The position numbers were made by a program, and so were the translations under genes. A stretch of DNA of 10,686 nt from Candidatus Thorarchaeota archaeon (lineage in GTDB: Archaea > Asgardarchaeota > Thorarchaeia > Thorarchaeales > Thorarchaeaceae): NCBI GenBank assembly GCA_016841005.1, contig JAEORG010000294.1:1-10686 (forward strand), written 5' to 3'. This document shows positions 1-9,713 of the stretch, one piece after another; position 1 is the stretch's first letter, and the number at the start of each line of letters is the position of its first letter. The notes under the pieces are model-generated. The model was not told the DNA's origin. It was given only the letters and a program-made list of their open reading frames with translations, and ran no database searches.

Positions 1-1019
1 ATATAGTTAACACCTTGATACTCAGCCTCTTCTGAGAGTTCCTCATAGGATAATGGAAATCCTGTTTCTTGCATCCATACATCTCTACATCTTTGAATCA
101 ACCAAAGTCCCATGACATTCTTGAGTAGTCTGACTTTCCCAAAGGCACCACCTTCATTTGTCAGATTGAACTTACTACTTGATTCATTAATAATCGGTGA
201 TTCAATTTCTACTCCTATTAACGACCATGTTCCGGACGACAGAAAAGCCCAATTCTCTCCCTCAGCTGGTACTCCTATAACGGCAGAAGCTGTGTCATGA
301 CTAGCCACTGACCAAATCGGTATTGAACCTAGCTCTGTTTCTTTCTGAACAGAATCTTTTAAAGAGCCAATCATAGTTCCAGGATTTTGCGTAGCTGGAA
401 ATATTAGAGGACTCAAATCAAGTGACTGGAGAAGTTCTTTAGAGAAGGATTTCTTTTTGGCATCAAAAAACTGAGTTGTTGTTGCATTCGTGTATTCCGT
501 TTGTAATTGTCCAGTAAGTAGATAATTGAAGTAGTCTGGAATCATCGCAATCGATTTTGTTCTCGCAAGAACATCAGGGTACAATTCCTTTACACCAAAG
601 AGATGGACTAGTCCATTGTACTTTACTTCTTGAATTCCAGTTATTTCATAGACCCTACTCATATCAAGCGACTTTCTCATTGCTTCATCGCCTGTGTGGA
701 TGAGATTATCGCGGTAATGAAATGGAAGACAGACCAATTCATTATTTTCATCTAAGTAGACCAAGTTGACACCCCAGGAGTCAACTCCTATGCCCTGAAC
801 ATCCAGACCTGTCTTCTTGGAAACTCTATTGAGCCCTTTCTTTATCTCCGTCCAATATGATGGCAGGTCCCACCTGAACACTCCGGAATCGTCAAATCCC
901 TTAGTAGGAAATCTATACACCTCTTCAAGTATCAGGTTACGATTTCTCAATGTCCCTAATACTATCCGTCCAGATTCTGCGCCAAGGTCTATTGCTACAA
1001 AGGACTCTCCATGGGACAT
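1..1019 (-). CDS. rhaB: Rhamnulokinase (FGGY sugar kinase), C-terminus cut by window edge
   Basis: This gene encodes the ATP-dependent kinase that makes L-rhamnulose-1-phosphate from L-rhamnulose in the cytoplasm. The frame is open for 339 codons and leaves the window; family members have about 480-490 residues, so roughly 70% is present. The phosphate-binding loop DLGAESGR (residues 11-18) is the RhaB form of the FGGY signature. Further RhaB-like blocks are GIGVDSWGVNLVYLD (76-90), EYTNATTTQFFD (175-186), SHDTASAV (240-247, with Asp242 as the likely catalytic base), SSGTWSLIG (261-269) and NEGGAFGKVRLLKNVMGLW (288-306). I recall the same blocks in Escherichia coli RhaB. The ATG at 1019 lies 10 bases after the aldolase stop with no clear ribosome site, so translation is probably coupled; a GTG at 1028 is an in-frame alternative. 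It is the last visible gene of the operon. The specificity call is strong because the neighbour is rhamnose isomerase. Confidence 0.94.
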   Translation of the reverse strand, partial: MSHGESFVAIDLGAESGRIVLGTLRNRNLILEEVYRFPTKGFDDSGVFRWDLPSYWTEIKKGLNRVSKKTGLDVQGIGVDSWGVNLVYLDENNELVCLPFHYRDNLIHTGDEAMRKSLDMSRVYEITGIQEVKYNGLVHLFGVKELYPDVLARTKSIAMIPDYFNYLLTGQLQTEYTNATTTQFFDAKKKSFSKELLQSLDLSPLIFPATQNPGTMIGSLKDSVQKETELGSIPIWSVASHDTASAVIGVPAEGENWAFLSSGTWSLIGVEIESPIINESSSKFNLTNEGGAFGKVRLLKNVMGLWLIQRCRDVWMQETGFPLSYEELSEEAEYQGVNY

Positions 1020-1029
1020 TGAAACCACA

Positions 1030-1644
1030 TTACCAGTTATGGAAATCTTTCTCTTCACTATAATCGCGTTTCAGGGGCATTCCGGTTAGCTTTGTCAAGT
1101 ACCTTATCTGAGCAGAGAATTCAGTTCCAGTAACATTCTGCAGTGCATCCTCCAAGGTAGTACCCTTTGCGAATACACCGTGGCTACGAACGATGACAAC
1201 AGGATAATTCTTGAGAAGTGGTGGGACCTTCTCAGCAGCTTCAGAAGCTCCTGCAGGAACATCGAGCTCAACAACTGGGATCTTCTTGTACATGAAAATT
1301 CCTTCTGCATCAATACAGGTCACTTCATCTTCGATCATTCCAAGAACGACACTGTATGGCGAATGGGCATGTATGATTGCCATCGCATCAGTTTCCTTGT
1401 ATATGGCACGGTGGACACCGAGCTCAGTACTTGCCAATAGAGACGAGGAATCTTCTTCCTCAAGTGAACATTCGATAAGATCATCAGGTTCGAGCCAACC
1501 TAACATTGCTGCACGTTTCTTGATGATTATTTTACCACCAGAACGAATCGATATATTGCCTGAATGACTTGTTTCCAAATTTCTCATTACGAGTGCTTTA
1601 CCAACTTTCTCAAAACTTCGAAATGTTTCTTCATCTATTGGCAT
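1030..1644 (-). CDS. Class II sugar-phosphate aldolase, probable L-rhamnulose-1-phosphate aldolase (FucA-like size)
   Basis: This is a zinc-dependent class II aldolase of the FucA/AraD/adducin family, 204 residues long. Visible active-site parts, numbered from the ATG at 1644, are the phosphate-binding SGNISIR (29-35), Glu74 in the STELGVH block, the zinc ligands His92 and His94 in IIHAHSP, and the third ligand His155 in VRSHGVFAKG. In this operon it should cleave L-rhamnulose-1-phosphate to dihydroxyacetone phosphate and L-lactaldehyde. In length it resembles L-fuculose-phosphate aldolase (about 215 residues) rather than E. coli RhaD (about 274), so the substrate is inferred from the neighbours; fuculose- or ribulose-phosphate activity cannot be excluded. 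The ATG at 1644 is chosen over an in-frame TTG at 1650 because AGAGG (1652-1656) lies seven bases before the ATG but only one base before the TTG. It starts 12 bases after the AOR stop. Confidence 0.88.
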   Translation of the reverse strand: MPIDEETFRSFEKVGKALVMRNLETSHSGNISIRSGGKIIIKKRAAMLGWLEPDDLIECSLEEEDSSSLLASTELGVHRAIYKETDAMAIIHAHSPYSVVLGMIEDEVTCIDAEGIFMYKKIPVVELDVPAGASEAAEKVPPLLKNYPVVIVRSHGVFAKGTTLEDALQNVTGTEFSAQIRYLTKLTGMPLKRDYSEEKDFHNW

Positions 1645-1651
1645 TCTCAAA

Positions 1652-1656
1652 CCTCT
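1652..1656 (-). promoter_or_regulatory. Ribosome binding site of the aldolase gene
   Basis: AGAGG on the minus strand lies directly after the AOR stop codon and seven bases before the ATG at 1644. It decides the aldolase start against the TTG at 1650, which would leave only one spacer base. Confidence 0.6.
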
Positions 1657-3441
1657 TCAAATTAAATCAAGTTCAGCAAGCTTATCCTGTGTGGGTACTC
1701 CATTCTTATCCCACTTTCTTATGCTGTAGTAATCTTCAAGTAATGAATCCAGTGGCACAGTAATCCCTTTCGAATAACCCTTCTCCAATGGTGTTGAGAG
1801 AAAACGTTCTGGCAGAGTATCTGTTTCCTTCGTGAGACCTGCCTTGATATTGAAAAGCCGTTCAAGGTTGTAGATTCGTTCTCCAATTCTCATTAGCTGT
1901 GTGATATTGAAATCTTCTCCAGTTATAGCAGTGGCAAATCTAGAATAGAAGTCAAATCCAAGTGCGTATCCAACAAATTTACACACAATTAGACTATCCT
2001 CAATGGCACTCTGGTGCTGTTTCAAAACAAGAAGATCAGCCTTACTACCTGCGGTCTTTCGAGGAATTTTCTTAGGAGCAGCAAAAATCTCCATTGCTGC
2101 GAGATATCCTGTTAGATGACATCCTCCTCGATTTGAAGTCGCATATCCTAATGCATGACCTATCGCACCACGAGGATCATATGCAGGTAATTCCATACCT
2201 TTCACATGCATAGCTGATGCTTGACTACCATACTTCTCAGCTAGCTTTGCAGAACCAGATGCAAGATCCTTACCAATTCCCTCTTGGTTTGAAATCTGAT
2301 GGATAAGATCAATTAGTACGTCCTTGTTGCCAAAGTGTATTCTATCATCATTTAATAACCCGATCTCTTGGAGCTCCATAGCGCAGGATATTGTTCCAGC
2401 AGCTGATATGGTGTCAAGACCTAAAAGATTACAGTGATAGTTGGCATGAGTGACTGTTTCTAAATCAAAAATACAAGTCAGTGTTCCAAGCAGTATGGAC
2501 TCGAACTCTGGGCCTTTACCATTCATCGATTTTGTCTTTGTTAAACGTCCACACCTTATTGGGCATGCATAACATCCTTCACTTTCTTCAAAGATTTCTT
2601 CTCGAATGACTTCCCCGCTTAGTTTCTCTGCTTGATCAGAAAAGCCCTGCTGAAAGTTCTTGATTGGTAGCATTCCTAATTCATTGATCACATTAACAAG
2701 TGCAGGGGTACCAAATCGGGGGAGGGAAGATCTAGTGATTGGTATCACTTTGATCTTATCTCTAGCTGATTTGACATAAGTTGAAAGAAGAGCAGTGTCT
2801 GCAACGTCAGCCCTTGAATTCCCAACCTCAATCACGATCGCCTTTAGATTCTTTGAACCCATGACTGCTCCAGATCCACCTCGACCAAAAGCACGATGGT
2901 TCCCGTCATTCATGATTGAAGCATAGAGAACACCATTCTCTCCTGCTGGACCAATCATTAGGGTGTGAAATCTCTGTTCCATTCGCTCTTTGAATTGGCT
3001 TTGCGTTGCGAGTGTATCCTGTCCCCAAAGGCTACTACAATCTACAATTTTAGATTCTCCATTCGTGGATATGCGAAGGTATCCCGGTTCATTCAATTTT
3101 CCCTTTACAAGAAGGGCATCATATCCAGTCGATTTCAAGGCATATCCAACAGTGCCTCCTGTATTTGAGTAGAGGATAAGACCTGTAAGCGGGGATTTCG
3201 TGACAAGTGAGAATCTACCACTAGTTGGTACAGAGGAACCAGTCAAAGGACCTGTCGTAAAGACCAACATGTTTTCAGCTGAACGAGGGTCAGTTTTGGG
3301 ATTAACAACATCTGTAAACAGCTTTAGTCCAAGACCACGTCCACCTAAATAATGTATGAAATTGTTTTCTGAAATTTCGATAGTTTCGATTGTATTATCT
3401 GTTAAATCAACAGAGAGTGCCTTTCCATGCATCCCTTTCAT
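1657..3441 (-). CDS. Tungsten-type aldehyde:ferredoxin oxidoreductase (AOR), likely oxidising L-lactaldehyde
   Basis: AOR family enzymes are oxygen-sensitive cytoplasmic enzymes that use a tungsten (or molybdenum) bis-pterin and one 4Fe-4S cluster to oxidise aldehydes to acids with ferredoxin. The 594 residues match the family's usual size of about 600. Visible signatures are GGRGLG (33-38), GPLTGSSVPTSGR (64-76), GRGGSGAVMGSKNLKAI (186-202), and the cluster ligands Cys290, Cys293, Cys297 and Cys487. Glu314 (GPEFES) and His442 (RGGCH) align with Glu313 and His448 of Pyrococcus furiosus AOR as I recall its sequence; LPAYDPRGA (418-426) is also conserved. The DxxGxC motif reads Asp482-S-L-I-V-Cys487, with Ile instead of Gly. 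The ATG at 3441 follows the rhaA stop by one base; the ATG at 3432 is possible and gives the usual MHGK-type start. Between rhaA and the aldolase, its expected substrate is lactaldehyde, which is an inference; the family call is secure. Confidence 0.96.
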   Translation of the reverse strand: MKGMHGKALSVDLTDNTIETIEISENNFIHYLGGRGLGLKLFTDVVNPKTDPRSAENMLVFTTGPLTGSSVPTSGRFSLVTKSPLTGLILYSNTGGTVGYALKSTGYDALLVKGKLNEPGYLRISTNGESKIVDCSSLWGQDTLATQSQFKERMEQRFHTLMIGPAGENGVLYASIMNDGNHRAFGRGGSGAVMGSKNLKAIVIEVGNSRADVADTALLSTYVKSARDKIKVIPITRSSLPRFGTPALVNVINELGMLPIKNFQQGFSDQAEKLSGEVIREEIFEESEGCYACPIRCGRLTKTKSMNGKGPEFESILLGTLTCIFDLETVTHANYHCNLLGLDTISAAGTISCAMELQEIGLLNDDRIHFGNKDVLIDLIHQISNQEGIGKDLASGSAKLAEKYGSQASAMHVKGMELPAYDPRGAIGHALGYATSNRGGCHLTGYLAAMEIFAAPKKIPRKTAGSKADLLVLKQHQSAIEDSLIVCKFVGYALGFDFYSRFATAITGEDFNITQLMRIGERIYNLERLFNIKAGLTKETDTLPERFLSTPLEKGYSKGITVPLDSLLEDYYSIRKWDKNGVPTQDKLAELDLI

Positions 3442-3442
3442 T

Positions 3443-4693
3443 TCAAGAACGCTTCCTTAGAACTGATGCTTCATATTCTTCTACGCGTTTGATCCAGTCG
3501 CTACCTTTTGGAACGTTCATCTCGGAGCAGAAGTAATCCCAAATAGCACCAAAAGGCATAGATTTCAATTCTTCTAACAGGGCCAGGCGTTGAAAGTTCT
3601 TGCCCTCTTCTTCGTATTCTAGGAGCAGGTCCCAAGGTTCTAACAGTGCATATAGTATACTCTTTAATGTCGCTCGGGATCCGATCACCCAAGCACCAAT
3701 TCGATTTATTGATGCATCAAAGAAGTCCATCGCTAGATGTACTCTATTCAATGCCTTCGCTCTAACTATTTCTTCAGCAAGTTGAATCAGTTCATCATTA
3801 AGAAGAACAACATGATCACTATCCCACCTTACACCACGGCTTACATGAATGAGCAATTCATTAGCAAATGGGAGTATAGAGGATATCTTGTCTGCAACGG
3901 ATTCAGTCGGATGATAATGGCCTGTGTCCATTGTAAGTAGCAGATTATTTGAAAGAGAATAGCCTAGGTAGAAATCGTGACTTCCAACCACGAATGACTC
4001 ACTTCCAATACCAAACAATTTCCCTTCCACTGCGTCCTTCAAAGTATCTGGAGAGTATTTCTTGGAGAATATGTCATCGAGAGATTCTTTCAGTATCAGT
4101 CTGTGACCAATTCTATCGACTGGTATATCCTTCGTACCATCAGGAATCCAAATGTTGTGAATTACTGGATTCTGTAATTGCTTTCCAATTTCTGAGCTTA
4201 TTTCCCTACATCGTTTCACATGCTCTATCCAAAATTCTCTGATCTTCAGATTTTTGCTACTTAGGGTGAAACCTGAATCGGCATTGGGATGAGAGAAAAG
4301 TGTTGCATTGAAATCGATACCTAGATTTCGTTCATTTGCCCAATCAACCCAACTTTGATAATTATCGATAGTAATCTCATTTCTTTCAATTTTGCGTTCA
4401 GAAAAGTCACCATAAATTGCATGAAGATTGACACGATGAGTTCCAGGTATTAGTGAGAAAGCAAAATCATAGTCTGTACGCAATTCATCTAGTGATCTTG
4501 CTCGTCCCGGATAACATCCGGTTGCGATAATTCCTCCTCCTGAAAGAACAGCCTCTGGCGATTCGAATCCAACAACATCATCACCCTGCCAACAATGAAT
4601 CGATAATGGGATATGTTTTAGCAACTCAATAGCAGCATTTGTATCCACACCAAGCTCGTTATACTGCATCACCGCCTGAGTATATGGATCCAT
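3443..4693 (-). CDS. rhaA: L-rhamnose isomerase
   Basis: This gene encodes the metal-dependent isomerase that interconverts L-rhamnose and L-rhamnulose, the first step of the phosphorylating rhamnose pathway. The protein has 416 residues, against 419 in E. coli RhaA, and can be aligned by eye from end to end. The signature HCWQGDDV (33-40) is intact. Metal ligands corresponding to E. coli Glu234, Asp267, His294 and Asp334 are Glu223, Asp256, His283 and Asp323, and second-site residues are His259, Asp291 and Asp293 (RWDSDHV). NIWIPDGTKDI (180-190) and MDFFDASINR (322-331) are typical. The ATG at 4693 lies about 40 bases after an A/T box and follows a degenerate GGGGCGAT ribosome site. It is the first enzyme gene of the operon, 59 bases behind the MarR gene, and has its own promoter and candidate operator. 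The gene looks complete and functional. Confidence 0.97.
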   Translation of the reverse strand: MDPYTQAVMQYNELGVDTNAAIELLKHIPLSIHCWQGDDVVGFESPEAVLSGGGIIATGCYPGRARSLDELRTDYDFAFSLIPGTHRVNLHAIYGDFSERKIERNEITIDNYQSWVDWANERNLGIDFNATLFSHPNADSGFTLSSKNLKIREFWIEHVKRCREISSEIGKQLQNPVIHNIWIPDGTKDIPVDRIGHRLILKESLDDIFSKKYSPDTLKDAVEGKLFGIGSESFVVGSHDFYLGYSLSNNLLLTMDTGHYHPTESVADKISSILPFANELLIHVSRGVRWDSDHVVLLNDELIQLAEEIVRAKALNRVHLAMDFFDASINRIGAWVIGSRATLKSILYALLEPWDLLLEYEEEGKNFQRLALLEELKSMPFGAIWDYFCSEMNVPKGSDWIKRVEEYEASVLRKRS

Positions 4694-4752: not shown

Positions 4753-5214
4753 TCAACCTCGAATCTCAGTGTACAGACCTTGAAGACCAAAGAGAAGTTT
4801 CACAATAATCCTATGGAATTCAGTCATCTCAGATTTTGATAAGGAAGAAAAAATCATCTTCATGTTTTCATAGTTCTCTTTCTCCCGCTCTTCCCAGAAC
4901 TTATCGTTATCGGCTGTTAAATGTAAGAGTCGCCTTCTTCTATCCTTAGGATCAACTACAATTTCAACAAATCCTCTTTTCCTGAGATTGAGGGCTATTT
5001 GTTTCACATTCTGATGAGAAGTACTTAGTACATCAGCTACCTCACTCAATGATGGATTGTAATCAAAGGCATTACCAATTGCGATTAGAGTTAGAAGTTG
5101 TTTAGTCGTCAAATCATATTTTTCAAGAAATGAGTCTATGATGTACTCTATTCTCTGGTTTAGGACGAAGAGATAACTGAAGACTTCGGCCATCTTTCTG
5201 GTTTCTTTACTCAT
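4753..5214 (-). CDS. MarR-family transcriptional regulator, probable rhamnose operon repressor
   Basis: This is a 153-residue winged-helix regulator of MarR size. The N-terminal helices (about 5-35) would form the dimer interface together with the C-terminal helices (about 105-153). LTTKQLLTL (35-43) leads into the fold, the recognition helix region is about 55-80 (LSEVADVLSTSHQNVKQIAL), and the wing carries DPKDRRRRLLHLT (88-100), which is the typical MarR wing. It is transcribed toward rhaA, 59 bases upstream, and the palindrome at 4716-4735 is the likely target. The ligand is unknown; a sugar, sugar phosphate or lactaldehyde would make sense but is not visible. The ATG at 5214 is preferred over an upstream in-frame TTG at 5238 because AAGGA lies 10 bases before the ATG, while nothing resembling a ribosome site precedes the TTG. 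The control of rhamnose genes is inferred from position only. Confidence 0.87.
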   Translation of the reverse strand: MSKETRKMAEVFSYLFVLNQRIEYIIDSFLEKYDLTTKQLLTLIAIGNAFDYNPSLSEVADVLSTSHQNVKQIALNLRKRGFVEIVVDPKDRRRRLLHLTADNDKFWEEREKENYENMKMIFSSLSKSEMTEFHRIIVKLLFGLQGLYTEIRG

Positions 5215-5248
5215 TGATCGTCCATCCTTAGTGCCCAAGGAAAGTAGT

Positions 5249-7713: not shown

Positions 7714-8211
7714 TTGCCATCAATGGTACTACGTAGAGAATTCTTAGAATTGATAGGTCATACATATGAGCAATATGGGTACCCAGAGTATTGTGGATGG
7801 ATCGAAGGCCTAATGGTTCTAGAACCTCAAAACTGGACACAACATGGAATTTCGGAACGTCTAAGTAATCTCTTTCCTGAGTCCAAATATCCAACTTCAG
7901 TTCCGTCTGTGAATCGCGCACTCAAGATACTTGAAACATATGGAGTAGTTGAGAAAAATGGGTCACGAAAGACTGGTTATCTATATTCAATAATCTCACC
8001 TACAAATCTTGTTTATTCCATGCTTCATCAATTCTTGGAAATGAATAAAGTATTCATCGCTCAGATGAAGGATCTATCAGCTAGAACTTCAACGAACGAC
8101 TCTACTTTGAAGAAAGCAGTACGAGCAGAGCTAAAAGCATGGCAACTCTGGGATAGGACAGTGAGAGCTATGGTAGACTCACTCAATGATGATAGGGAGA
8201 GTAAATCATGA
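7714..8211 (+). CDS. Winged-helix transcriptional regulator, GbsR/MarR-like
   Basis: This is a 165-residue DNA-binding protein. An N-terminal helix leads to YGYPEYCGWIEGLMVLEP, which resembles the entry of GbsR-type MarR regulators. A helix-turn-helix follows (ISERLSNLF, then VPSVNRALKILETYGVVEKN), and a short wing (SRKTGYLYSI) ends near residue 97. The last third is helical and probably dimerises. The start is taken as TTG at 7714 on ribosome-site and promoter spacing; GTG at 7690 and ATG at 7723 are in-frame alternatives that do not change the domain. Its stop overlaps the next gene's ATG (ATGA), so the two are translated together and the regulator probably controls its own operon through the inverted repeat at 7656-7673. 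The family call is by pattern and moderately sure; the ligand is unknown. Confidence 0.75.
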   Translation: MPSMVLRREFLELIGHTYEQYGYPEYCGWIEGLMVLEPQNWTQHGISERLSNLFPESKYPTSVPSVNRALKILETYGVVEKNGSRKTGYLYSIISPTNLVYSMLHQFLEMNKVFIAQMKDLSARTSTNDSTLKKAVRAELKAWQLWDRTVRAMVDSLNDDRESKS

Positions 8212-9713
8212 GTAGAAATTCGATGATTATAATCGGTGCTGGTCTTGCGGGTCTGGCAACTGGGGTCTACGCACAACTGAATGGATATGATAGTAGGATT
8301 TTCGAATATCACACTAAACCAGGCGGAGTAGCTGCGATGTGGCGAAGAGGTGAATACCTAATTGATGGTGGAATCCACTTCTTAATCTGTCACAAACCTG
8401 GTACTCAAATTCATGATGTATATACAGAGGTTGGCGCAGTTGGAGAATATGAGATTGCGGACATGACAACCTATCTCAAATTTATTGATGAAACAGGAAC
8501 AAAGTCGATTGAATTTACTGAAGATATTGAAAAGCTAGAGCAAGATCTGATTACAATTGCACCGGAAGATGAGAAGGAGATAAGGAGCTTCATCAAGGAA
8601 ATAAACTGGCTTAAGAATTCACCATTTCTAACAGATCTTGGTATGAGTACATCCCCTTCAGAACTTCGAGGTAGATTCGATTCGCTGAGAGATATGTGGC
8701 AAATGAGAGGATTCATGAAGTATTTCACTGGCAAATTCTCAAAATCGTCAGCAAAGTATGCAGAGAACTACAAGAATCCATTCCTAAGAACCGTTATCCA
8801 AAATCTATTTGCTCCTTCTGCACCGGTGTGGTTTGTTATCATGATTATAGCAACTGTGGCAGCAGGATATTTGGGTTTGCTCAAAAAGGGATGCCACGAG
8901 TTCGTAATGCCTATGGTGGAACGATACAAATCTCTCGGAGGAGAAATACAATATCATGCGAAGGTTGAGAAGATACTCGTAGAGCAAGATAGGGCCGTTG
9001 GAATCAGACTAAAAGATGGCTCTGAACATAGAGCAGATGTAGTTGTTTCTGCTGCGGATGGTAGAAGTACAATTTTCGATTTGCTAGAAGGAAAGTATAT
9101 TGATGAGAAAATCAAGAAAAGGTACGAAACTTGGATTCCCTATGATCCAATGGTCGTAATTAGTCTAGGAGTAACCCGCACTTTTGAAGATGAAGCTCCA
9201 TTGACTATGTTCATGATGCCAGAGCCCTTAAAATATGGAGAACGAGAGATATCATGTCTTCCACTCAGAGTATTTAATTATGGAGATGAGTTTGCACCTA
9301 ATGGAAATTCGGTCATTCAAGTCATATTGGAAACTGAGTGGGAATATTGGAATAGGCTCAGACAGAATAAAGAAGAGTATGATATCACGAAAACAGATCT
9401 TGCTCAAAAAATAATCCAACGGCTTGAAAATCAATACCAAGGGATATCATCGCAAATAGAAATGATTGATGTTGCAACACCATACACATCATGGAGATAC
9501 ACACTAAATGATAGAGGTTCTCCAATGGGTTGGTTGCTTACAAGGAAAACTCTGACAGAATTAATACCTAGAACACTTCCAGGTTTGGATAATTTTTACA
9601 TGGCGGGTCATTGGGTACTACCAGGAGGAGGAGTACCTGGAAGTATCTACACAGGTAGGAATGTACTACAAATTTTATGTAGAAGGCAGGGAAAGAAATT
9701 CAGATCAAAGTAA
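8208..9713 (+). CDS. FAD-dependent oxidoreductase, phytoene desaturase / retinol saturase-like (CrtI family)
   Basis: This is a 501-residue flavoprotein of the CrtI/CrtISO/RetSat group, which desaturates, isomerises or saturates polyprenyl chains. The N-terminal dinucleotide-binding fold is clear: IIIGAGLAGLATGVYAQ (7-23), the acidic Glu33 and KPGG (37-40), as in the family. A second FAD-contact region, RADVVVSAADGR (275-286), and the C-terminal block NFYMAGHWVLPGGGVPGSI (462-480) followed by TGRNVLQIL are typical. The hydrophobic stretch at about 206-225 matches the substrate/membrane-facing region of this family and is not called as a true transmembrane helix. GGGAG (8195-8199) lies eight bases before the ATG. 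In an archaeon the substrate might be a carotenoid or an isoprenoid lipid chain, but no carotenoid genes are visible, so desaturase versus saturase is left open. Its end overlaps the opposite gene by 14 bases. Confidence 0.87.
   Translation: MSRNSMIIIGAGLAGLATGVYAQLNGYDSRIFEYHTKPGGVAAMWRRGEYLIDGGIHFLICHKPGTQIHDVYTEVGAVGEYEIADMTTYLKFIDETGTKSIEFTEDIEKLEQDLITIAPEDEKEIRSFIKEINWLKNSPFLTDLGMSTSPSELRGRFDSLRDMWQMRGFMKYFTGKFSKSSAKYAENYKNPFLRTVIQNLFAPSAPVWFVIMIIATVAAGYLGLLKKGCHEFVMPMVERYKSLGGEIQYHAKVEKILVEQDRAVGIRLKDGSEHRADVVVSAADGRSTIFDLLEGKYIDEKIKKRYETWIPYDPMVVISLGVTRTFEDEAPLTMFMMPEPLKYGEREISCLPLRVFNYGDEFAPNGNSVIQVILETEWEYWNRLRQNKEEYDITKTDLAQKIIQRLENQYQGISSQIEMIDVATPYTSWRYTLNDRGSPMGWLLTRKTLTELIPRTLPGLDNFYMAGHWVLPGGGVPGSIYTGRNVLQILCRRQGKKFRSK

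Follow-up and report, generated by a model that had tools for sequence, protein, structure and literature searches.

The breakdown of L-rhamnose and that of L-fucose are described as yielding the same two products, dihydroxyacetone phosphate (DHAP) and L-lactaldehyde (PMC10986504). In Bacteroides thetaiotaomicron, a lactaldehyde reductase is encoded in the rhamnose gene cluster and propanediol is made (PMC11669328). Aldehyde:ferredoxin oxidoreductases (AORs) belong to the tungsten oxidoreductases (WORs), among which 5 of 92 clades have a member of defined physiological role according to a 2026 survey (PMC13328260). Most AOR families are biochemically uncharacterized, and unclassified AOR genes are among the most expressed genes of one Asgard lineage (PMC11291895). 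Here, we describe an operon in which the two subjects meet. It lies on a contig of Candidatus Thorarchaeota (JAEORG010000294.1), whose whole stretch of 10,686 bases is called the window below (10,686 bases is also the longest contig listed for its AOR), and it joins an AOR gene to genes for L-rhamnose isomerase (rhaA), a class II aldolase, and rhamnulokinase (rhaB). With a probability of about three in four, we judge that this operon encodes a phosphorylative route for L-rhamnose, to which the AOR adds an oxidative branch coupled to ferredoxin.

The four genes lie on the minus strand in the order rhaA, AOR, aldolase, rhaB, with intergenic gaps of 1, 12, and 10 bases when re-read on the DNA. 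An earlier note on this stretch had reported this adjacency, and both the coordinates and the gene families are confirmed. The rhaA gene (3443..4693) encodes 416 amino acids and scores 589.5 bits with PF06134 and 630.7 bits with NF002203 (cut-off 572), which identifies the product as an L-rhamnose isomerase; it matches solved L-rhamnose isomerases at E 3.6e-145, and its 570.8 bits with TIGR01748 fall just under the cut-off of 584.95. The AOR gene (1657..3441) starts 1 base past the rhaA stop and encodes a large subunit of 594 amino acids with both AFOR domains, the N-terminal one at 241.7 bits (PF02730) and the C-terminal one at 421.6 bits (PF01314). The aldolase gene (1030..1644) encodes 204 amino acids when read from its ATG, with a TTG at 1650 as a possible alternative start, and scores 109.4 bits with PF00596. 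The rhaB gene (3..1019, ATG at 1019) carries both FGGY kinase domains (PF00370 and PF02782), and its 3' end is cut by the window edge. Its best model is TIGR02627, with 319 bits over positions 1-303 of 454, and the cut-off of 528 is probably missed because of this truncation.

In the proposed pathway, RhaA would convert rhamnose to rhamnulose, RhaB would phosphorylate the rhamnulose, and the class II aldolase would cleave the product of RhaB into DHAP and L-lactaldehyde, which the AOR would then oxidize to L-lactate with the reduction of ferredoxin. L-lactaldehyde is named as the best candidate substrate mainly because it is, along with DHAP, a product that rhamnose and fucose share. One correction concerns the aldolase family. 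The window protein is not of the Escherichia coli RhaD type, scoring only 25.1 bits with the RhaD model NF002963 (cut-off 170); its best model is NF006413, at 193.8 bits against a cut-off of 203. Residues E76, H94, H96, and H157 (numbered from the TTG at 1650) are kept in 36/36 relatives, and we take them to be the zinc ligands and the catalytic Glu. Cleavage of rhamnulose-1-phosphate is the activity that we propose for the window aldolase, a class II enzyme of uncertain specificity.

The family position of the AOR was established through a genome scan whose query was an alignment of 30 AORs, drawn from 120 listed among 7985. The scan gave 221 confirmed matches, the best 80 of which were turned into loci extending up to 10 kb on each side. 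An AOR tree of 133 rows was built by a quick method, with some long branches flagged. AORs with an aldolase neighbor fall within one clade of 91 rows with a Shimodaira-Hasegawa-like approximate likelihood ratio (SH-aLRT) support of 99, two Bathyarchaeota rows standing apart, and the suggestion that rhamnose-linked AORs might group together in a family tree is thereby borne out. The sister of this clade consists of Bacteroidota/Chlorobiota and Heimdall AORs that have no aldolase neighbor. This tree includes 37 of the 40 loci counted as clade loci and 37 of the 40 others, and the remaining six took the expected sides in a later tree.

An aldolase gene follows 3' of the AOR gene on the same strand in 33/40 clade loci versus 2/40 other AOR loci, and the gap between the two genes is at most 111 bases in 29 of the 40. 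Among the seven clade loci that have no aldolase, four (L004, L006, L010, L068) stop within the AOR gene or no more than about 210 bases past it, and three (L014, L034, L056) lack the aldolase. The only aldolase carriers among the 40 non-clade loci are two from Bathyarchaeota, L062 and L070, and theirs is a distant one. A sweep of Bacteroidales was positive for 7 of 295 genomes, six of which were already known. The AOR-aldolase pair is the conserved core of the arrangement.

Several individual loci show variations on this pair. In L014, the clade AOR is matched only to residue 526 and is followed by another open frame with no aldolase, which represents either a broken gene or an assembly fault. 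The AORs of L062 and L070 are themselves distant and fall outside the main clade; each has its distant class II aldolase immediately upstream, and the two families may have been paired independently here. Locus L105 (genome G019) carries an AOR with an aldolase neighbor of 38 percent identity and falls just outside the clade with weak branch support; it may be a member of the clade that was misplaced, or else one more separate pairing. In two Lokiarchaeota-type loci, a gene of about 305 amino acids stands between the AOR and the aldolase (L016 2233-3165 and L176 7259-8176), and the L176 protein has no Pfam match.

The window AOR protein aligns over its whole length with the Pyrococcus furiosus AOR (PfAOR, 1aor), which is its best solved match at 513.7 bits. 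Residues Thr243, Glu313, Tyr427, and His448 are given for the tungstopterin site of PfAOR (PMC13328260). Their counterparts in the window AOR, T245, E314, Y421, and H442, are kept throughout the inner part of the clade (81/81 rows) and in 26/26 sister rows (the residue counts cover these two sets and leave out 10 basal clade rows). The same 81/81 and 26/26 rows keep C290, C293, C297, and C487, presumably the four cysteines of the 4Fe-4S cluster. The window AOR probably contains tungsten. Within the contig, its gene is flanked by rhaA and the aldolase gene, with neither WorS/WorN nor another second subunit adjoining; Class I WORs are described as consisting of the large subunit alone, with ferredoxin given as the carrier (PMC13328260), and by this likeness ferredoxin would be the electron acceptor here. 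The inner part of the clade is distinguished from its sister at nine positions. These include D469, Q477, and E481; PfAOR has L in place of Q477 and I in place of E481. It is a guess from the alignment that these residues might take part in substrate binding.

A triose could be imagined as the substrate instead. The aldolase also yields DHAP, which leads on to glyceraldehyde-3-phosphate, and the AOR family includes an enzyme for this compound, GAPOR (PMC13328260). The window AOR might then act on a triose such as glyceraldehyde-3-phosphate, or run in reverse. The identification with GAPOR was rejected, however, given a score of 50.4 bits with NF040818 against a cut-off of 1300, and the much closer match to PfAOR also speaks against a triose substrate, leaving this explanation highly improbable.

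The genes surrounding the pair point to deoxysugars. Among the 40 clade loci, rhaA is present in 8, FucI in 6, and either one in 13 (one locus, L013, holds both), compared with 0/40 for each outside the clade. When GH29 fucosidases and GH78/GH106 rhamnosidases are considered as well, the count becomes 16/40 versus 0/40. In 6 of the 40, rhaA lies at most 126 bases upstream of the AOR gene, and rhaB stands between rhaA and AOR on the opposite strand in L013 and L019. Locus L013 combines rhaA, rhaB, AOR, aldolase, LarA-like, GlcD-like, and FucI genes within about 10 kb on mixed strands. A fucose counterpart is found in the Bacteroidales locus L188, where genes for an FGGY kinase, FucI, FucP (597.2 bits, cut-off 280.4), the AOR, and the aldolase follow one another on one strand; this kinase scores best with the rhamnulokinase model, under its cut-off. 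On the tree, the partner changed between rhamnose and fucose at least twice over 14 labeled rows, two of which are labeled by a fucosidase alone. The description of a rhamnose operon with a built-in AOR therefore needs to be divided: the isomerase and kinase of the window are rhamnose-type, whereas the pair is not rhamnose-specific, as it also occurs in fucose clusters and in some genomes with neither isomerase. The pair would serve both sugars as a common final module.

Conservation of the full gene order likewise holds in part. The rhaA-AOR-aldolase adjacency recurs in Lokiarchaeota, and it can probably be extended to close relatives of the window AOR. Among the matches listed, 6 of 8 other AORs of the window subclade (P0002, P0003, P0004, P0005, P0008, P0015) have a RhaA partner, meaning a close RhaA match with the same source and an equal longest contig (19398, 7012, 24101, 12266, 17533, and 4743 bases), which suggests that rhaA and the AOR gene share a contig in these six. 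Among the same matches, no RhaA partner is present for P0006 and P0007 of this subclade or for P0009-P0014 (the group of L005), one distant AOR/RhaA pair also agrees (64505 bases), and an apparent match at 10285 bases was discarded on account of differing sources. The exact order rhaA-AOR-aldolase-rhaB, by comparison, was found in no second locus; other clusters that include rhaB have it at a different position.

Other neighbors were seen at a few loci. A gene resembling the Sde182 nucleoside hydrolase adjoins rhaA in L171 (8585-10024) and L175 (8420-9853), from genomes G136 and G118, whose rhaA does not adjoin the AOR gene. A DHDPS-family gene lies just upstream of the pair in L028, L029, L031, and L035 (by Pfam for L029 and by cluster for the others), and such neighbors may represent a non-phosphorylative, second source of lactaldehyde. 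The genomes of these four loci (G164, G165, G167, G168) carry both isomerases on other contigs.

Co-occurrence across whole genomes also provides a link to deoxysugar use. An AOR at E <= 1e-165 is present in 38 of 227 Asgard genomes, and 25 of these were assigned to the clade, either by the tree or by sharing a contig with a placed locus. The other 13 comprise 5 read as loci (including G019, with its weak support) and 8 assigned by score alone. RhaA matches occur in 23 genomes, and a weak one in G099 was dropped (37.4 bits, over the cut-off of 22). FucI matches occur in 30, of which 15 strong ones were kept and 15 weaker ones dropped, 8 of the latter being over the cut-off and clade genomes G098 and G017 being among them. 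RhaA or FucI is encoded by 19/25 genomes with a clade AOR versus 5/202 without (19 with both, 6 with the AOR only, 5 with an isomerase only, 197 with neither; Fisher 3e-18, a value that is overstated and only a guide because the genomes are related). In genome G058, fragments of the AOR stand where contigs end, next to rhaA and next to the aldolase and FucI genes; when G058 is counted as a clade genome, the table becomes 20, 6, 4, and 197. An aldolase of the family (E <= 1e-12) is then present in 25 of 26 clade genomes, as well as in G019; G110 has none and its AOR is truncated, and the G142 aldolase is a fragment at a contig start. None of the four isomerase-positive genomes without a clade AOR has this aldolase. 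In one of them, G102, a different class II aldolase gene stands directly between rhaA and rhaB, and there is no AOR gene; the best match of that aldolase is the one in L070, at 31 percent identity. Both isomerases are carried by 13 genomes, 12 of which have one AOR at the cut-off and all of which have one aldolase of the family, suggesting that one pair serves both sugars.

A number of observations weigh against a link to rhamnose and fucose. Six clade genomes (G001, G010, G017, G097, G098, G110) have no strong RhaA or FucI, including the home of the Thorarchaeota locus L005, the closest named relative of the window AOR at 74 percent (G001). Such genomes either are incomplete assemblies or supply the aldolase with other substrates. 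Conversely, G099, G102, G136, and G163 have an isomerase and no clade AOR. Outside Asgard archaea, the 16 genomes with clade loci yield one RhaA (G235) and six FucI matches, one of them weaker (111 bits, G015); neither isomerase is found in G014, G233, and G236, or in 6/6 genomes of Thermoplasmata and Aerophobetes. These gaps would be explained if the AOR served a general class II aldolase with a varying aldehyde, rhamnose and fucose being only two of its uses. Acetaldehyde or methylthioacetaldehyde from 5-deoxypentose salvage and glycolaldehyde from ribulose-1-phosphate are the rival aldehydes; a class II aldolase that gives acetaldehyde is known from the DHAP shunt of E. coli (PMC10986504), and five of the six clade genomes without a strong isomerase match (6/26 with G058 added) do have the aldolase. 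Against this, the isomerase and kinase of the window are rhamnose-type, and RhaA or FucI is present in 20/26 Asgard clade genomes and in 0/13 with only another AOR of similar score (E <= 1e-165). Moreover, in the three Thermoplasmata loci with both genes, the AOR and aldolase genes are 0.9-1.8 kb apart with other genes between them. A general aldolase seems distinctly less probable than an AOR acting on lactaldehyde.

The neighborhood offers some indications of the fate of lactaldehyde. LarA-like and GlcD-like genes lie within about 2 kb of the pair on the opposite strand in L013 and L019, an LdhH/LutB-like gene lies on the strand opposite to the pair in L024, and GlcD-like and CCG genes adjoin FucI, away from the pair, in L192. 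These genes fit lactate as the product and are no proof of it. Indeed, care must be taken with their annotation: the scanned lactate-type genes fall under curated cut-offs (the L013 LarA has 422.7 bits of 460, and 397 with a malate racemase model), TfrB is matched by the CCG and LdhH-like proteins as well, and L013 is closely related to L019. A similar set of GlcD-like and CCG-type genes within about 6 kb of a Heimdall-type AOR (L058) was dropped as a lactate link because L065 and L073 lack such genes.

Enzymes that might compete for lactaldehyde must also be considered. Aldehyde dehydrogenases (ALDHs) are encoded elsewhere in 32 of 35 genomes tested, the three without (G009, G154, G012) having the AOR and an isomerase. 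Three ALDH genes share a contig with the pair or an isomerase: one in G006, about 71 kb away from the AOR gene; a partial one in G118 (64.5 bits), about 5 kb away from rhaA; and one in G098, where a weak FucI-like gene is about 9 kb away. Generic, weaker iron-dependent alcohol dehydrogenase (Fe-ADH) matches occur in 203/227 Asgard genomes. Together with reports that E. coli (PMC10986504), Clostridium (PMC6384099), and Bacteroides (PMC11669328) usually reduce lactaldehyde under anaerobic conditions, these homologs would allow a distant Fe-ADH to reduce the bulk of the lactaldehyde to 1,2-propanediol while the AOR merely detoxifies leaked aldehyde. We consider this unlikely, since 0/227 genomes pass the lactaldehyde reductase cut-off, and the position of the AOR gene, 1 base past the rhaA stop and ahead of the aldolase gene, is as would be expected for a stoichiometric step. 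The expectation that neither fucO nor an ALDH gene adjoins the pair was also upheld: three Fe-ADHs and three ALDHs used as tblastn queries (E 1e-8) found none in 63 loci and the window, whose contig ends inside rhaB, in a search of limited reach since it missed the weak G118 ALDH match.

Overall, comparative genomics supports the interpretation of the AOR as the lactaldehyde step of the operon, through the recurrent pair, the single clade, and the co-occurrence with isomerases. Collectively, the findings suggest that Asgard archaea and a few Bacteroidales gain energy from lactaldehyde by oxidizing it to lactate, instead of giving it up as propanediol. A broader proposal, which we favor somewhat over its negation, is that this tungsten-enzyme clade has specialized as an L-lactaldehyde:ferredoxin oxidoreductase tied to a single aldolase, which takes both rhamnulose-1-phosphate and fuculose-1-phosphate. 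The pair would then be a portable deoxyhexose end-module in Asgard archaea and some Bacteroidales, turning lactaldehyde into low-potential electrons for hydrogen or syntrophic partners, with the lactate passing on to pyruvate. If true, this would depart from the common picture, in which lactaldehyde is reduced to propanediol by anaerobes, and the electrons would be kept as reduced ferredoxin.

Further genes of the window can be mentioned briefly. A MarR-family gene (4753..5238, minus strand, start uncertain; PF12802, 36.7 bits) precedes rhaA, which has the same orientation, by 59 bases and is possibly a local regulator of the operon; it has no relative at E 1e-8 within the 80 AOR loci. At 8208-9713, there is a gene for a CrtI-like FAD oxidoreductase with 73 percent identity to one in Asgard genome G191, other matches in the 19 genomes searched reaching at most 46 percent. 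A hydrolase has no match at E <= 1e-60 in any of the 227 Asgard genomes.

The AOR family and the deoxysugar pathway are each known, and it is their combination that is new. No report of a rhamnose- or fucose-linked AOR was found in the open-access literature, as far as its searchable excerpts extend, and no open-access paper joins AOR with lactaldehyde under the spaced spelling of the enzyme name, a search that the colon spelling escapes (e.g., PMC6278857). The main text of the 2026 WOR survey makes no mention of rhamnose, fucose, aldolase, or lactaldehyde (PMC13328260). With the present finding, one AOR clade has a concrete candidate substrate that can be tested.

Comparison with described systems places the operon among several partial parallels. 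The phosphorylative rhamnose and fucose pathway of E. coli, Clostridium, and Bacteroides has the isomerase, kinase, and aldolase steps in common with the window; unlike that pathway, the window has an AOR and no adjoining FucO- or AldA-type gene, and its aldolase is far from the RhaD model. The DHPS cluster of Desulfovibrio DF1, likened here by description and not by sequence, also encodes an AOR alongside a pathway that runs through a lactaldehyde-like intermediate, and this AOR is co-induced; there, the NAD enzyme SlaB carries out the sulfolactaldehyde step and the role of the AOR is unclear (PMC6278857). The recombinant form of this DHPS-induced AOR was inactive on lactaldehyde, acetaldehyde, and sulfolactaldehyde, which also counts against a lactaldehyde role, although the protein assayed is another AOR and was made in E. 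coli (PMC6278857). P. furiosus GAPOR and Caldicellulosiruptor GOR are WORs with a listed role in glycolysis (PMC13328260); their substrates are glycolytic, and the window AOR is far from the GAPOR model (the sequence comparison concerns GAPOR alone). The closest likeness is to PfAOR, a Class I WOR that shares with the window AOR both domains, the pterin-site and cluster residues, and the lack of an operon partner subunit. The window protein has H and I where PfAOR has its iron-bridge residues E332 and H383, and the role assumed for PfAOR is the detoxification of aldehydes that arise in peptide fermentation (PMC13328260), whereas the gene for the window AOR is tied to that of a sugar aldolase.

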